Below are positions 10,980 to 63,452 of a stretch of 64,000 nucleotides of DNA, in pieces. The stretch lies in assembly GCA_020080175.1 (NCBI GenBank), contig JAGHQL010000012.1, forward strand, positions 62,001 through 126,000, read 5' to 3'. Numbering within the stretch: the first letter of the stretch is position 1; every line of letters starts with the position of its first letter. A model generated the notes under the pieces. It was not told where the DNA came from. It made no database searches and saw only the letters and a list, made by a program, of their open reading frames with translations. Source of the stretch: Glutinoglossum americanum (lineage: Eukaryota; Ascomycota; Geoglossomycetes; Geoglossales; Geoglossaceae). The position numbers and the translations under genes are program-made.

Positions 10980-12265
10980 ATGGCTGAGACTCATCCGCCA
11001 CCAGTTCCGGCATATGGCCTTCCTCCACCATACCCGCCATACCCTTTCCCCCCGCTCCTCCCACCACCTCGCAACAGCTCGATACCGATTCCAGCACCAG
11101 TCCACCCCTACCACAGGAACGGTGCACTTGCTCCTCAAACGTTCACTAGCTACGCCTCGGTTGACAGGTGGCAGCAACCGGCTGCCCCAATCGAGAGGCT
11201 CATATCGAATGAAATTAGCCCGCCACCCGGCCTCTATCCTCCGTACCCACCATACTCGGCTCCCACTTTCGAATCTCGCACAGACCCGGGATCCAGACCA
11301 CCGCCTCGGATGGAAAGGGCAAGGTGAGCAAGAGAAGATGGGATCGTGGAAGGTCCTGTTTGGTCACAGCTAATGACTCGGCGAAGGCATCCCGCACCAG
11401 CAATGCCATCACCTACATACACCGTGAGGCAAGGTTCCGACGGGTCTTACCAGACCTCTACCCCTCACTCTGCTGATGTCGTCCCATCGCCCGGGAGCGC
11501 ATCTGCCCTAGGCCCTCCAGAGAACTCTCCGAGGAACAGGTCAGGAACTCTGATTGCCGAGAGTCACGGCTTTGCTGCATACTGACAACGATCCACAGTG
11601 ATGGCAGATACGAGATTAGAGTGCGACAACAGCCCGAGGCAGCTCGATCTTGCGGTTTTGGTGAGCGCGACCGGCGAGTCATCGACCCTCCGCCCATCGT
11701 TGAACTAGTGGTGAAAGATCTTAAAACGGGACTTCCCGATCAATCAGAGCTTCGTTATCCATTCAACGTCCTACATTGTACGTTGTGGAGCGCCGATGGA
11801 AAGTCGGACGAGACGGCACTGGTCGCGCAGGACAGAATACGCACAAATCGGCGACTCATGGGCACGCTTGTGTCATCGCCATTCTTTGGAAAGGACGACC
11901 TGGACCAAGAGGGCTCATTTTTCTGTTTTCCCGACCTGTCGTGTCGGACACCGGGGAAGTACAGATTACGCTTCGTCCTCATGCGGCTGGATCCAGACAA
12001 GGTCCAGTACGGTGGCCGCTCTTCCACCATCACTTCGGCGATGAGCGACGTCTTTACAGTCTTCAACGCTAAGGATTTTCCGGGAATGAAGGCTAGCACG
12101 CCACTTACCAAAGCTTTAAAGCGCCAGGGCTGCGCAATTTCAGTCAAAAAGGGCAACGAGAGGGCAAACGCGAGCGAGAGGAACCTCACCCGGACCTTCG
12201 AGGAGCTGAGCGGAGAGGAGGAGGAGGAGACTGAGGGTGGAAGATCGAAGAGAAGAAGAAAGTGA
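10980..12265 (+). CDS. velC: Velvet-domain regulator, VelC type
   Basis: Exons 10980-11323, 11387-11539, 11599-12265; 387 residues. Introns are 63 and 59 bases, both phase 2. The N-terminal 160 residues are Pro/Tyr-rich and disordered-looking. The velvet domain (about 166-350) starts DGRYEIRVRQQPE and includes DRRVIDPPPIVEL, GTLVSSPFFGKD, FFCFPDLSCRTPG and a terminal DFPGM block. DLSCRTPG and the single-exon domain fit VelC better than VelB (split domain) or VosA. An acidic stretch and RSKRRRK, a likely nuclear localisation signal, close the protein. Velvet proteins bind DNA and link development with secondary metabolism in filamentous fungi (known of the family). An in-frame ATG at 10914 would add 22 residues; the uORF at 10901 favours 10980 slightly. 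Subfamily assignment is less certain than the velvet domain. Confidence 0.87.
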
Positions 12266-12871: not shown

Positions 12872-14992
12872 ATGAAATACGTTCTAGTATCTGGAGGTAA
12901 ATATGCAGCATCCCGGACCCGGCGGGACTGTCAAACTGACGTTTCGTTTCGCAGGTGTCATCAGCGGCATCGGGAAGGGTGTAATCGGTATGCTGTGCCC
13001 CGCCAAAAGTTCCACTTTACGCGCTCGTGAAGCCAACAAACTCACGCGACAACAGCTTCTTCCACGGGTCTGCTGCTCAAGACGGTCGGATTGAAGATAG
13101 GTCTCCCGATCCGACACGTCGTCCTGCCCGAAACATCTAAGAAAATGCTGACTGGCTTTCTACGTGTCATCCATAAAGATTGACCCTTATATGAATGTCG
13201 ATGCCGGCACAATGGCCCCTACTGAGTATGCCCGGCTTACCTGCATCGAAAACGCTAAGCCTAATTGGCTGAGATATGACACAGGCATGGAGAGGTTTTC
13301 GTCCTGGATGATGGAGGGGAAGTTGACCTGGACTTGGGCAACTATGAACGATATCTCAACATCACCTTGACGCGAGAGAATAATATCACAACAGGAAAGA
13401 TCTATCAACACGTAATCGAACGGGAGCGGCGCGGTGACTATCTTGGGCGGACTGTCCAGGTGGTGCCTCACCTGACAGATGCCATCCAGGATTGGATTGA
13501 ACGGGTAGCGCGGATACCTGTCGATGACACCAATGAAGAGCCTGATGTCTGCATAATTGAACTTGGGGGCACGGTGGGGGATATTGAGAGTGGGCCATTC
13601 ATTGAAGCCATGCGGCAGTTGCGCAGACGAGCTGGCAAAGACAATTTTTTGCAGATACATGTGTCCCTGATCCCCGTCGTGGGGGGCGAACAAAAGACCA
13701 AACCCACCCAGCAAGCCATCCGGGATGTACGCAGTGCAGGATTGAGCCCTGACCTTGTAAGATGATCACCTCTGTGGCTCGCACATTCGCCTCAAAAACC
13801 TGCTGATGTCGGGTGTCGTGTATAGATTGCATGCCGCTGTATCCAGCCCCTGCACAGTTCCACGACCGACAAAATCGCGCAATTCTGCCAAGTAGAGCCT
13901 GACCAAGTTGTCGCTGTGCATGATGTATCCTCTACGTATCACGTCCCGCTGCTTCTCGAAAACCAAGGTCTTATTGGCCTCCTTCGCAACATCCTTAAGC
14001 TTGAAGCCCTCACCATATCTCCTCGCCTTTGGAGAAAGGGAAGGGACGTTTGGACGGAATGGAAAACACTCACAGTCTCGCAGGATAGGCTCTTTGAATC
14101 CGTTTCGATTGCCCTCGTAGGCAAATACACGAACCTACACGACTCTTACCTTAGCGTTATTAAGTCCCTTGAGCATGCGTCGATGCGATGTGGTAAGAAG
14201 CTCAACCTCATCTGGGTTGACGCTTCGCATCTGGAACAACAGACCAGTCAGGATAGCCCTGCGGAGTTCCACAAAGCCTGGCATGAAGTCTGCACCGCTA
14301 ATGGTATACTAGTTCCTGGAGGTTTTGGACACCGAGGTACTGAAGGCATGATTGCTGCTGCGAAGTGGGCTCGGCAAAATAAGACTCCATACCTGGGTAT
14401 CTGCCTCGGTATGCAGATTGCGGTCATTGAATTTGCTAGAAACGTCTGCAATATCCCACACGCGTCATCTGGGGAGTTCGCCGAACGATGCTCGGACCCT
14501 GTCGTCATCTTCATGCCCGAGATCGACAAGACCAAACTCGGTGGCACCATGAGGTTAGGCTTACGCCCCACACTCTTCCAGGCGGGTAGCGAGTGGAGTA
14601 AGCTCCGACGGCTCTACGGCGAGAAGGAGGAAATCCTCGAGCGCCATCGCCATCGCTACGAGGTGAACCCGCAATACATCGACCGCCTAGCTTCATGCGG
14701 TTTGGAATTCATCGGAAGGGACGACAAGGGCGAGCGAATGGAGATCTTGGAGCTGCGTGATCATCCCTGGTACGTGGGCGTCCAGTTTCACCCGGAATAC
14801 CTGAGCAGGGTCCTACACCCGAGTAGGCCATATCTCGGATTTGTAGCGGCGAGCGCGGGGTGTCTGGACGAGGTCTTCTCGTCGGTTCCTGCTGTTGACA
14901 CTAACGGCGTCTACCATGGATATGGACGTGGTGGTAGTGCTACCGTTACAGGTTTGACGAATGGTGTTGTCGGGGGTGGTCAAACCGTTTGA
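12872..14992 (+). CDS. URA7: CTP synthase
   Basis: Converts UTP to CTP using glutamine, the last step of pyrimidine nucleotide synthesis. Exons: 12872-12896, 12955-12987, 13056-13096, 13164-13225, 13285-13756, 13826-14992; 599 residues. The N-terminal synthetase domain shows [32 protein letters not shown] and [11 protein letters not shown]. The C-terminal glutamine amidotransferase shows PGGFGHRG, nucleophile Cys404 in GICLGMQ, and His533 in VQFHPEY. Five introns sit mostly in the 5' third. Four are GT-AG; the third (13097-13163) starts ATAG and ends CTAC, and only that pair of borders restores the invariant GLKV-SSIKID junction (see its own entry). The first three exons are only 25, 33 and 41 bases. 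A Gly/Val-rich C-terminal tail is typical of fungal forms. Confidence 0.97.
13097..13163 (+). other. Apparent AT-AC intron in CTP synthase
   Basis: 67 bases, phase 0, beginning ATAGGT and ending CTAC, with a CTGAC branch-like site (in GCTGACT) about a dozen bases before the 3' end. The flanking exons encode GLK and VSSIKID, the expected length and residues of this conserved block. The borders cannot slide by one base either way, and no GT-AG pair nearby gives the conserved junction: reading on, or splicing at the nearest AG, runs into a stop before SSIKID. The donor is a G1-to-A version of a GTAGGT site paired with a G-to-C change at the last base, as in U2-type AT-AC introns. A sequencing error is the alternative. 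Confidence 0.65.
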
Positions 14993-55991: not shown

Positions 55992-58900
55992 TTAGCCCCT
56001 TATTGCCTTGGCTCCGTTTCTCATCGTTCTTGAGACTTCCGTAGACATGGCCTTTTGGTAGATCTGCTCGATAAGCTGGTTAATGGACTTCGCTCCAAGA
56101 ATCTCCAGAACCGTCATGTCGGCTTGTAATTCTGCAGGCGATTAGGTCAGCCAGCCGTCGAAAGTACTGACGCTTTGCGAAGCGGACTAGCCTCGCGAGA
56201 GGGTAACGAACCTCTATAAAACCAGTACTGGCACGACACCCCGCTCAATGAATCGAGCCCATATATCAACAATGAACTCCCCGGGTCGAAGGTTTCAGCC
56301 CCAAATCCAAGCAGTCCGGCTAGGAAGACTAGAAAAGCATCAGTTAACGCAGCTCGCGCGTCTGCCTCATCCAACTCCTGGATCCGTTCCCGAAGACTTA
56401 TATCCTGCTCGCTGTGCCTACAGTTGACACTCCAACTTCTGCGATGCGGCTGTAGAAACCCAAACTCGGGTAGCTCAGTCCAGTAAAGCATTGTCTGGTC
56501 CTGAGCACCAACCAGTTTGTCATCAACGCGCTCGAACATCTCGAGACCGGTTAGGATAAGTGAGCGATCGGATTGTGTACTGTGGGATTCTATAACAGCT
56601 GCTTCCATAATCTTGCTGAGGTGGGGCTTTCGGAGGGGTGAGAGGCCGCTGCGGGTGATGGCTTGGAGGGTCTCTTCACGGTTAAGAGTGTAGAGGAGGC
56701 TCTCTCCACGGCTGAGAGAGCGGAGGAGGCTCTCTCCACGGCTAAGGGAGTTGGGGAGACTCTCTCCGCAGCTAAGGGAGTGTATGACGCCGATGTCAAC
56801 TGAATCGAAGTCAGCTCCATAGCCTTTGGGAAAAGAGAATAAGCTTGGCCTGTTGGGAAAGAACTTACTCATCGCTCCTAAAGCTATGGCTACACCAGGG
56901 AGGCCTTGGGATCGTCTATATTCGGCGAGTGCGTTCAAAAAGCTGTTACCGACGTTGTAGCCGGTTTGATTCCGGTTCCCGATAACGCTTGCAACGGACG
57001 AGAACATGATGAAGAATTCAAGCTCATCGTGGAGCGTTTCCTCGTGCAATATCCAACTGGAATCGACTTTGGCCCTGAGAGCTCGATCCAAGTTCTCCCC
57101 TTTCATGTAAGCTAGAGGGGCATCGCTTAGGACCATGGCCATATTGATCACTCCTCTAATAGGATGGCGCCGTCGGATCTGAGACAGCACATCGGACATC
57201 AATGTCCGATCGCAGGCGTTAGCTTTCACTACTTCGATTGAAGCCCCTGAAGCATTGATGGTTCTAAAAGTCCCTTGCGCTTCTTCTGACTCAAGTCCAC
57301 TTCTAGAGATGGTAACGAGTCTCTTGGCTCCGTTTGCAACCATCCAAGAGCAGACATAACGCCCGAGTCCACCCAAACCACCAATTATGATGTAGGCGCC
57401 ATCAGAGAACAGCCTTTCTGGCTTTCTGTACACTGCAATGCTGCCCCTGACCTTCCCTACATTCGAGTGTACAAGGACACTCGAGTACGCGGCCTTCTGC
57501 TGCCCACCTTGGAAGGCTTCTTTAAATTCGTGTAATTTGAATAGTGTTAGTGGAGATGCAAACGTTATACACTGCGCCCAGGCTCCGTTGACACTATGTG
57601 CCCCATGCTCCGATGCAAGGTATCTGTCGATATCGACTGAAGAATGGTTGACTAAGAGGCCATCTGTCGCAGTGAGTTCAACACGGAAGTCTACTGTCTC
57701 TTGAGCTTGTAAGCCGAGCACAGTCGCCCCAAAGTCATTAGCGAATTTCGAAATGGCCTCGCCAAGGATGCCACCGATATTTATCCGGAAATTGTCTCCA
57801 GCCCTAGCCCTAGCGAGTCCGTCGACAATGCATAGACCGGTACATATGGCAGCAAAATGGGCCGCGTTAGCTGCAAAGGAAATACTACCCCTGCAAAGTC
57901 GTAGTTGTGTATGTGGCACTTCCAGTCGATTACGGTGGGCACCGACTTGCCATCCAACAACACGCGACCCACGTGGAAAATGCTTGCCAGAATCAGACTT
58001 CACCTCCCCAGCAAAGAATCTCCCACAGCGTGGTCCAGATGGTGCATTTTTGACGCCATTAAACGCATTGATATCGTCTACATCAATGACTGAAGCCTCT
58101 ACCTTGACCAAAACCTTCTTTGTCTCGATTGATTGAAAGAAGATTGGCTTAGAGGCTAGAATTGCCGGCTCATGAGGTGCAGCTAAGATTAACTCGTAGT
58201 CTTCATCGGCAATCGGACGATCCACGTTCCGGGACAAAGCCGCGCCTGTAAAAGAAGAAAGTTCATCGTCCGGAAGGTACCGTCTAATAAACACTTTGGA
58301 ATCTTTCACCTCGTATAGGATCTCGTTATCTCCCACTAACGGACCCGCAATAGTTGACGCAATAGCCTTTTGGATCACGGAGGTGTCTTCCCCTCTATCA
58401 AATATCAACCATGTGGTCTTAAGAGAAGGCTGCTCGGCCTGTAGAGTGCGTAGGAGAGTGCCAGCCATGCCGGTGAATGGATTATGAGGATCTCGCTGTG
58501 TCACCCAGATAATCCTCTTAGACAGTGCAACTAGATCCTGTAGCCATGGAACTAATATATCTCCAGGCCAGGTACCTATGATCGACTTTTCTACGCAATC
58601 AATAACAATCGTGTCGTACACCCCTTTTTCGCCGCGCTGACAGAATGCTTGCACTGATTCTGGCTGAAGTGAGATATATTCTGCATTTGGTAAACACTCG
58701 ATAGTAGATATTCGTTGGTCGGAGTGAGTGAAGACTGTCGCCTTGGAGCCTGGCAAGAGTTGGTCTGAAGTCTCATTCTTGCGCCAAAGGGCCCAGTCAT
58801 TGTCTCTGAATCCTGTAACCTCACATATTTTTGTGAATAAGTTGAAGGGACCTGGTGTTCCTCCCTGATTAGCGGAGCGTACACAAACCAAGCCGTTCGA

Positions 58901-61900
58901 GTGGAGTTTTCCAGGCAGGTGGTCCACAGTAGTATGGTTACCTATAAATATTATGTGGAAGCTGGTATTGACATCTAAAACTTCATTAAATCGAATACGC
59001 TCATCAGTGGATCCGGCCGGTTCTCCAACAATCTGTACTGACCGAAATCGGGACCTCTCCGGGCGCTTTAGATAGTCTAAAATTATTTTGTTGTCTTCGG
59101 TAGTCAGTCCGGTCACTCCGATATCACACATTGGCCACTTGTGGGTTAGCATTTCAAAGCAATCAGAGAGGCTCATCTGTCCCGGCCCTGAAATTTTAGT
59201 GATGTCGGGTAACATGATTTGCCTGAAGAATAGAGATTTGAGTATCGGCTTCTGGCGAACAGCGCCAGTGGCGGCTAGGCGTATATCGGATATTGACATA
59301 AAATACTTGCCAAAGAACATCTCAATATTGCTTTCGTACCCAGATATATGCCCGGAGTTGACTTCAATAGCGAATCGACCGGAACGAGCAGCCTCGACTT
59401 GGGCTGGAAACATAATCGACCCGATAGATGATATTTTAGTTAGTACGGGAAGATTCTGTCCTAGTACTGACACCGGTGGCATATGTAGGATACAATCCAG
59501 CGCTAACGGATCTATGCAGTAGTCTTCACAATAGTGGGAAGCTTCAAACCCCCCTAGAGAGCCTTCGGAACTCACTTGAAGCTCTGTTAATTGGTGGTTT
59601 GTATCCCGTCCAAGCAACTGCATATTTTCGAGTAACAGTGGGTCATGGTTCACCGCCAGGCTGGCGAGCTTAGGCCTCCTAGTTGCACTTTCTGTCCAAC
59701 CAAGCATACCAAAACAGTGTCGGGTTGGGGGGCTTGATCCCTCTATTGGGAAAGAGGTTATGTCGAAATTGAAAATATTCGGCTCCTCGCTTTGACAGGC
59801 AGTGAGGTGCAGTTCTACACTATTTGCGCTAGCGAACGAGTCTAGCTGCAAATCGCCCTCGAACTCAACATCGGATACCAGGAGAGATACAGCCTCTTGA
59901 GCCGCCACGACCTGAAGCTGACGTGCGGCTTCTAAAGCCATAAGGACGAACACTGTTGGTGGTATTTCTGTAGCTCCCTTAGTCTGTAATAGTCGTTAGC
60001 ACCGGTGGCTAAAGGCACTTGAGTATAAGAAACCAAATGACGTGACAGCCTTCAGCATTCCACATGCGTGAATGATATTTCCCACAGCCCAGCATTCCCA
60101 TGGCAGGCAAAAAGAACTCTCAGAACAGCAGATAATGCGTGGCATGCCCCCTAGAATTCAACGCAAGAGGACTCTATTCAATTTCGGGTCACAATCTGTG
60201 TATCACTGGTCTACGGTGCACGTTAAACAGAAATCACTAACCCCCCTAAGTTCCAAGAGCCAAGGCACCTCTTTGAGCATCAGGAGGCTGCGCCAGGCCG
60301 GGCGTGACGGTATATCCTCCAAATAGCGCGACCCAAGCAGCGGGTTGCGAGGGAATTGGCGATTGCGTATATTTCGACTAATTCTCGATTCCTCCCAGAG
60401 TGAAATGGAGTGTTCCCATTGATAGCCTTGCACCCGGAGTCAGCCCGTTTTGAACCTTCGGAGGGGAGAGTCAAAGAGGTATGGGTGTTAAGCAATTACT
60501 TGGTAAATCAGTCAAGACATTTCCAGGTTTGTGAATGCATTTGAGACCGTTGACGACCTCCCGAGCATTGATGGATGGGGTTTCGATGGGTACCCCGCAT
60601 GCTATCATGGCACTAGCACTATCAAGTAGTGCTTCAAGATCATCTCTTCCTCTGAGGCAGGAATGAAAGTATCTGACTGAAGCTTTGCTCAGGCTTCGAA
60701 TGACATCCATTGCTGGCCCCTGAAGAGCCGGATGTGGACCAATCTCCACAATTGCCGAGATTTCGGGACAAGATTCTATACAACTAGTCAATGCGGCGGC
60801 GAATCGGACAGTTGAGACCATGTTTTGCTTCCAATACGATGGTAAGCACGCCTCCGCCATCAAACTTTGGCCGATCACGGATGAAAACATCTGGCATTTT
60901 GTTGCGAAAGTGAGTGGTGATACCTTTGCATCGATAAGAGCCCGTTCGTATCGAGCAGCCACAGGGAAAACGTGGTGTGAGTGATATGCTAAGGAAAAGG
61001 TCAATTGTTCTCTTCAACAACAGGCAACAGACAATAAGCCAAAGCTCACCTGTATCGACACGGAGCTGTCGACAGAAGATGCCGGTCTCCCCACACAAGC
61101 CAACAATCTCCTCAATCGCATCTCGATCTCCAGAAAAGGTACAACTACCCGGCGAATTAACAGCAGCGAGCTGAGCCCGACCCTCGAACCTCTCAAGAAG
61201 CGCAACGGCGCGCTCCTCACCCAGACCAACTGCGCACATAGCACCATTTGGCTTCTTTGCCGGCGAAGCTGCAGCCACGCCTGCAAGGGACAATCCGCGG
61301 TAGTACGCTATAACCATAGAGTCTCGAAGAGAGATATAGCCCGCCGCATAAGCCGCCGCAATCTCTCCCGAAGAGTGGCCGACAACAGCGCTGGGAACAA
61401 GACCCCAAGACCTCCACAAGATCACCAAGCCTAGCTGTAGTGCGGTGCACAATGGTTGCGAGAAACATGATTGGTAGATGTTCGAGTCACCTTTGGATTT
61501 TGACAATTCGTCAATTATGGACCAGGTAGGGCTATCAGTGAGGCTTGAGAGCACGCGCTCGCACTCTAGCAAGACGGCTTTGAAAAGAGGTGATTGCTCG
61601 AGCAAGGCCTTTCCCATCTGTGGCCCTAATATACACAGCGTATTGACTCAACTTTGTCCACGTTAGGGGGCCGCTGGAACCAAAACACTTACACTGGGCA
61701 CCTTGTCCCGTAAAGAGAAAAGCAATATTCTTGGTCTTTCCGTCACTTTTTATTAATGCTTTCGGGCTCTCCGCCCTCAGCATCTGTACAACGTCCTTAA
61801 GTGTTCTAGCGGTGAAGAAAAACGACTGCCTTAATGTCGACCGTCGGCTGAGTAGCGTATACGCCAGATCTTGGATATTAGGATTTCGGGTCTCCACATA

Positions 61901-63452
61901 ATCTACATATTTCATGGAAAGCCTTCTTAAAGCATTGCTATCCACTGCCGAGACTTTGAAAAGCCATGTCCTCCCTGGGGTGCCGTCCTGCGACGATCGT
62001 GGAGGATAAGCTTCCAGTACCGCGTGACCGTTGGTCCCTCCAGCTCCAAATGTATTGATCGCCGCACGCCGAAGGCCATTTCGGGGGGAGGGCCAGTCTA
62101 CTAGATGAGTTGGAATTTGAACGTTCCGGAAGTCGATTTTGGGGTTGGGGTTGCGGAAATGCATCTGTGGGGTTATCTTTCCTCTTTCGAGGCATTCGAT
62201 GGTCTTGATGATACTAGCTAGCGCGGCACAGGCTTCAAGATGCCCGATATTGCTCTTTGTTGATCCAACTATTAATGGTTCGTTCCTAGGCAAGTGTGCG
62301 AATACTGCGTTGATGGCGGAAAACTCCAGGGGGTCACCAGCGATTGTTCCGGTGCCCTATACATACACTAGCGTTGAGATCATCTGTCCGTACAGGATAG
62401 GAGAGACTGACATGCGCTTCAAGATACTGGATATCAGCAGGGTCAAGAGATTTATCTGCATAGAGCTTCTCCATGTTCCGCTGTTGAGCATCTGCCGAGG
62501 GTAATGTAATCCCCTGGGTCCTACCATCCTGATTCAACGCTACTCCTTTTACGACAGCACGTATCGGATCTCTATCCGCCACCGCAGCCCCCAGTGGCTT
62601 GAGAAGCAGGGCCATAACGCCTTCGCCGCGGCCATACCCATCTACATCGGCATCAAAGCTTCGACATCTCCCAGTCGGGCTTAGGAACCCCAGTTCTGAG
62701 GAGGCGACGAACATATCAGGCGTGATGATAAGCTTAGCACCACATACTATGGCCATCGGTGAATCACCACGTTGGACCGCATGTACAGCCTGATGGAAGG
62801 CTATCATGGTAGAAGAGCAAGCTGTGTCAATAGACATACTAGCCCCAGAGAGGTTGAAGAAGTAGCTTATTCTATTTGCCGCCATACATGTCGCCGTACC
62901 CGTCGCTAGGTATCGCGGTGTGGCTTCGACATCCCTAGACAGAACTGCATGGTAATCGCAGCCATCCATTCCTATTCAGTAGGATTATGTAAGTTCCTCT
63001 CATCCCCAAATCTCCCACATACATTCCCTGACCCACCAAAGAAATCTCTTTTCCTCACCCGCATAAACGGCAGTATTGGTGCCAACAAAGCCCTCCAGCG
63101 GGATTCCTGCATTCTCAACAGCCTCGTAAGCGATTTCCAAGAGCATACGCTGTTGGGGGTCCATAGCAATCGCTTCGGCCGGTGTGATGTGAAAAAAAGC
63201 GTGGTCAAACCGGTCAATCGCGTTATCATCCATCATATATGCTCTCTTAACGTTGGTCAATCCTTTGCGAGAACCACCATCGGGGTGGTAGAAACCCTTT
63301 GTGTTGAACCGAGTAATCTCGCTCTGGACATCTCGAGAGGAGACCAGCAATTCCCATAACTCTGATGGGGAATTAACACCTGCAGCCCTGCAAGACATGC
63401 CAATGACAGCAATGTCGCTGTTGCCGTTATTACAGTTAAGATTTGGCATCAT
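55992..63452 (-). CDS. Highly reducing type I PKS (KS-AT-DH*-ER*-KR-ACP)
   Basis: Exons: 63452-63059, 62971-62412, 62356-61693, 61625-61050, 60988-60500, 60426-60242, 59983-56212, 56131-55992; 2259 residues, no internal stop. KS: Cys183 in DTACSS, His318 in EAHGTGT (made across intron 2), His357 in KSNIGHLE. AT: Ser624 in GHSSGE. DH: the N-terminal block is clear (RNRQFPRNPLLGSR, EVPWL) but the position of the catalytic His in relatives (RDHK) reads LELR, so it is probably inactive. A methyltransferase-like stretch before the ER is too diverged to name. The ER has lost its nucleotide-binding glycine pattern. KR: GGLGGLG, with Ser and Tyr of the active site visible (SSVAS, TGYNVGN). ACP: Ser2201 in GLDSL. 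Four 10-residue repeats lie between KR and ACP. No release domain is present. The product is unknown. The DH intron (258 bases) is long. Confidence 0.93.
56671..56790 (-). repeat. Four in-frame 30-bp repeats in the PKS
   Basis: Exact 30-base register: 56671-56700, 56701-56730, 56731-56760, 56761-56790. On the coding strand they give SLSCGESLPN, SLSRGESLLR, SLSRGESLLY and a diverged TLNREETLQA (residues about 2021-2061), between the KR and the ACP. Confidence 0.9.

Follow-up and report, generated by a model that had tools for sequence, protein, structure and literature searches.

Does the third intron of the CTP synthase gene in this probable ascomycete begin with AT and end with AC, and if so, which spliceosome would remove it? 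The window, meaning the whole 64,000-nucleotide stretch of DNA that was analysed, corresponds to G000:C24:62001-126000 in a searched genome of 25,765,983 bases (25.8 Mb) and 317 contigs. Removal of four GT-AG introns together with the AT-AC intron from the gene in Table 1 yields a CTP synthase of 599 residues with no internal stops. The best match among solved CTP synthases is chain 7rkh_D, which aligns to residues 1-564 of 599 (818.6 bits, E 2.4e-245) and does so free of gaps across residues 1-408. This alignment, taken with the matches to PF06418, indicates a full-length CTP synthase with both of its parts. Across the genome, CTP_synth_N (PF06418) is matched three times, each time inside this one gene, which is therefore the sole CTP synthase found. 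CTP synthase is an essential enzyme. An earlier note on this DNA had remarked on the dependence of such a gene on an AT-AC intron, and the lack of a second copy among the search results supports that remark. Directly 5' of the gene lies a velvet-factor gene (window 11477-12262, + strand), and pieces of a polyketide synthase, with a KR domain, an acyltransferase and the C-terminus of a ketoacyl synthase, are found on the - strand at window 56150-62356. The velvet-factor gene and the shortness of the introns are in keeping with a filamentous ascomycete; the earlier note had likewise proposed a probable ascomycete.

Table 1. Features of the CTP synthase gene and of its AT-AC intron, in window coordinates.
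Feature	Coordinates	Strand	Details
CTP synthase gene	12872..14992	+	six exons, 599 aa, stop included
Intron 1	12897..12954	+	GT-AG, 58 nt
Intron 2	12988..13055	+	GT-AG, 68 nt
Exon 3	13056..13096	+	41 nt; 3' end TTGAAG = residues L-K; K is residue 33
AT-AC intron (third of gene)	13097..13163	+	67 nt, phase 0; from junction enumeration and protein continuity
5' splice site ATAGGT	13097..13102	+	preceded by AAG
Branch-site heptamer TGCTGAC	13146..13152	+	presumed branch A 13151, 12 nt before last intron base
3' splice site CTAC	13160..13163	+
Exon 4	13164..13225	+	5' start GTGTCATCCATAAAGATT = V-S-S-I-K-I
TGA stop reached on intron retention	13181..13183	+	from translation of the retained form
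Intron 4	13226..13284	+	GT-AG, 59 nt
Intron 5	13757..13825	+	GT-AG, 69 nt

The letters at the junction coordinates read ...GGATTGAAG / ATAGGTCTCC...TGCTGACTGGCTTTCTAC / GTGTCATCC..., where the strokes mark the exon-intron borders. To judge how far the protein fixes these borders, all placements of the third intron were enumerated with starts at 13060-13149, ends no later than 13224, a length of at least 31 nucleotides, an open frame without stops and the other introns held fixed. Such placements number 2,127, and exactly one restores the uninterrupted enzyme, namely 13097-13163 with its AT-AC ends. Eight other placements give a protein that differs from the expected one by a single residue; their ends are AA-AC, GA-GT, AT-TC, AT-TG, TA-CT, AG-TA, GG-AC and GT-CG, so that GT-AG, GC-AG and AT-AC are all missing from this set. 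GT-AG ends occur in three of the 2,127 placements, each losing at least VSSIK, and GC-AG ends in none of these in-frame, stop-free placements. There are eight further AT-AC placements, the nearest of which (13109-13163) inserts IGLP. The intron cannot be slid along the sequence, since it opens with A whereas the downstream exon opens with G, and it closes with C whereas the upstream exon closes with G. Both statements of the earlier note on this point, that AT-AC alone joins GLK to VSSIKID without loss of a residue and that the borders are fixed, thus hold, and an intron with AT-AC ends at 13097-13163 is confirmed at the level of the genomic sequence. With the junction set by the protein, the chance of meeting AT at one end and AC at the other is about 1 in 256, a figure for one four-base end pattern under equal base use.

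The expected protein was judged against relatives of the enzyme. The search of genome contigs gave 32 loci, prokaryotic only, and the search of viral contigs gave no relative. All 32 loci were fetched, two were dropped because they did not align to the N-terminus, and one of the 30 kept was partly masked. All 30 align gap-free over residues 8-70, so no residue is expected to be missing or added at the junction. These loci inform on the gapless block and not on the ends of the intron. Residue 38 is lysine in every one of the aligned prokaryotic relatives (30/30), and it is probably a lysine that binds nucleotide. The intron sequence itself was found in one copy in the genome, and a repeated element was rejected as its source on that account. 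RNA editing of the A at position +1 was also rejected, by reasoning only, because it would leave the last C unexplained.

The interior of the intron resembles that of a major-spliceosome intron. When AAG/ATAGGT is set against the 5' end of the U1 candidate (AUACUUACCUU), which lies under the Rfam gathering score (53.7 versus 69.5), eight of nine positions pair or wobble and the mismatch falls at +1; the sibling donors pair at 8, 5, 5 and 5 positions. In computed energy the duplex of the AT-AC donor (-3.2) is nevertheless the weakest of the five, the siblings reaching -7.0, -4.4, -5.1 and -4.3, because the mismatch at +1 breaks the helix. TGCTGAC matches TACTAAC at 5 of 7 positions, as against 4 or 5 of 7 in the siblings, and its presumed branch A stands at a distance from the intron end that is normal for a U2-type branch site. 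The length is likewise typical, with siblings of 58-69 nucleotides. AT-AC ends, a donor interior of U2 type and a branch of U2 type together make up the sequence features of a type II AT-AC intron, the term for those spliced by the U2 spliceosome (PMC7072748, in an excerpt). We consider it very probable, judging from these signals, that 13097-13163 is a real spliceosomal intron of this U2-dependent type II kind. This agrees with what the earlier note had read from the letters, that is, internal donor bases of major-spliceosome type, a branch of the normal type and no obvious U12 intron. Its further point, that the major spliceosome tolerates the paired change to AT-AC, is stated for yeast in passages of PMC6726248.

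Removal by the minor spliceosome is the reading that AT-AC ends bring to mind, and a branch A placed 12 nucleotides from the 3' end would suit it. The donor, however, matches the U12 consensus RTATCCTT at only 4 of 8 positions, two of which are the AT itself, and over positions 2-8 of ATATCCTT it matches 3 of 7, no better than the GT-AG siblings with 3 to 5 of 7. The best match to the U12 branch TTCCTTAAC in the searched part reaches 5 of 9 and lies about 31 nucleotides from the end, and all four sibling introns reach 5 of 9 as well. The major spliceosomal RNAs U1, U2, U4, U5 and U6 were all found in the genome, whereas searches for U11, U12, U4atac and U6atac found none of the four there, with the five major snRNAs as the only positive control; the minor snRNA searches also had no match in 14 prokaryotic control genomes, so that this non-detection does not show absence. 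Excerpts of a published survey report no convincing minor introns in Ascomycota and Basidiomycota (PMC10639083). A U12-dependent intron is accordingly regarded as extremely unlikely. An error of assembly or sequencing would dispose of the unusual ends altogether, since one changed base per end would give a perfect consensus intron (GTAGGT and CTAG), and the assembly does stand in 317 contigs. Such an explanation needs two separate errors, 66 bases apart, at exactly the positions that co-vary, in a gene whose 600 codons contain no frame-breaking error, and we hold it to be very unlikely.

The protein might instead differ from the expected one through use of a GT-AG intron, for example the nearest such placement, 13085-13178, which is in frame and free of stops. 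Its donor (GTCGGA) is poor, and it deletes nine residues (VGLKVSSIK), so that the sole CTP synthase found would be made without the lysine that all 30 aligned relatives share; there is scarcely any likelihood that this intron is the one used. Another reading keeps the AT-AC intron and makes its removal a slow, regulated step, in which the intron is often retained and the spliced share sets the level of enzyme. Retention does lead to an early stop, with translation ending at 13181-13183 after 28 extra codons, and splicing with A at +1 is slow or blocked in other fungal introns (passages of PMC4299874). Yet a premature stop follows whichever of the five introns is retained (5/5), so this is nothing peculiar to the AT-AC intron, and regulation by retention appears improbable to a high degree. 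It is similarly doubtful in the extreme that the AT-AC ends are under selection, with a slow second step turning the intron into a regulated and rate-limiting switch in the sole CTP synthase gene; were it true, enzyme supply would follow the capacity of the spliceosome.

The spliceosomal RNA genes offered observations of their own. The sole U6 snRNA match (L012:1501-1680, or G000:C280:33219-33398) is interrupted by a 70-nucleotide GT-AG intron with the branch CTAAC, positioned just after ACAGAGAAGAT; introns in fungal U6 genes are known. Two U2 snRNA matches, L034:1501-1791 (+) and L035:1501-1778 (-), have an apparent GT-AG intron at the same place, 97 nucleotides long in L034 and read by eye in L035, so that the U2 RNA would itself need splicing. 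The heptamer TGCTGAC also occurs in the U2 snRNA intron of L034. The third U2 match, L036:1501-1677 (G000:C267:131068-131244), contains the second-exon part, and the motif GTAGTAT was not found on the one strand of its 3,177-base locus that was read; the copy may be incomplete, or the first exon may sit at a greater distance upstream.

How common such introns may be was approached by ab initio scans and from the literature. Three attempts at scanning, covering the window and another 200 kb from contig C1 (264 kb in all), had little power. The first coding-model scan gave 14 GT-AG and 7 AT-AC clusters among 132 and recovered none of the five introns of the CTP synthase gene, and the second gave 35 GT-AG and 10 AT-AC candidates among 373; GT-AG stood little above the other end classes in both. 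The signal scan for GTRNGT gave 49 GT-AG hits, where nine classes with wrong ends averaged 33.1 and AT-AC had 27, and that for GTANGT gave 39, where the average was 13.9 and AT-AC had 13. Within these 264 kb AT-AC introns were not seen in excess, at the little power of the tests. The published figures below are taken from excerpts of the sources. AT-AC introns make up 0.019% of annotated fungal introns (PMC7072748) and 69 of 14,305 RNA-seq junctions in Trichoderma longibrachiatum (PMC4324775), and values of 0.09-5.19% of junctions, which likely include mapping noise, are given for several fungal species (PMC6176087). For C. elegans, at least 42 real AT-AC introns are suspected, probably spliced by the U2-type machinery (PMC3033335). 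Trichoderma is likewise a filamentous fungus; its AT-AC junctions rest on reads, whereas the CTP synthase intron rests on protein continuity (PMC4324775, in part). CTP synthase goes unmentioned among the matches listed for literature on fungal or ascomycete AT-AC introns.

U2-dependent AT-AC introns are a subject for which Wu and Krainer (in 1997) are reportedly cited. The CTP synthase intron shares with the type II class its AT-AC ends, its donor interior and its branch, and differs in being a 67-nucleotide fungal intron whose U2 dependence is a prediction from the genomic letters. Budding yeast provides a closer comparison. According to the passages drawn from PMC6726248, AT-AC was the most efficient pair of ends after GT-AG in a mutated yeast intron, no standard yeast intron normally uses it, and a natural AT-AC protointron has been confirmed by sequencing. 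This SUT635 protointron of S. cerevisiae is spliced without a minor spliceosome, as is proposed for the present intron, but its host is a non-coding RNA and GT-AG ends are used there too, whereas the CTP synthase intron interrupts the coding sequence of an enzyme gene (PMC6726248, in part). Other fungal introns indicate that A at +1 is not always accepted. The 5' splice site of Aspergillus telomerase RNA, AUA(A/C)GU, shares the A1 in an otherwise normal donor, and in A. niger the A at +1 of this intron blocks the second step (excerpts of PMC4299874). That RNA is cleaved with its second step blocked, whereas the CTP synthase intron has C as its last base and needs both steps. In fission yeast, according to the same source, A at +1 inhibits splicing of a tif212 intron and, in the case of the S. 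pombe TER1 intron, stops the first step, which suggests that tolerance is context-dependent (PMC4299874).

The type II reading, which we prefer, leads to the following proposal. U1 would recognise AAG/AUAGGU through the pairs that flank position +1, U6 would recognise the later bases of the donor, and U2 would pair with UGCUGAC, so that the first step could take place at A1. An A at position 1 would by itself be expected to hinder splicing, and the C at the other end may allow the two terminal bases to contact each other as a pair of Gs normally would; with both steps completed, the CTP synthase message would be made. As to origin, the ancestor of this intron most likely had GT-AG ends, which two changes, G1 to A and the last G to C, turned into AT-AC. 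Each single change is expected to splice poorly, so it is probable that the second soon joined the first or that an intermediate with weak splicing existed for a time.

The AT-AC intron of CTP synthase is one more case of a rare and already known intron type, and is otherwise ordinary. Gene finders that accept GT-AG only will break the CTP synthase gene model. What the locus offers is a clean candidate, supported by protein continuity, for a naturally occurring intron that runs from A to C, in what is apparently the only CTP synthase gene of a fungus whose genome yielded no minor spliceosomal RNA to the searches. The interaction between first and last intron bases, so far mostly studied by mutation, could be tested on it in a natural setting.
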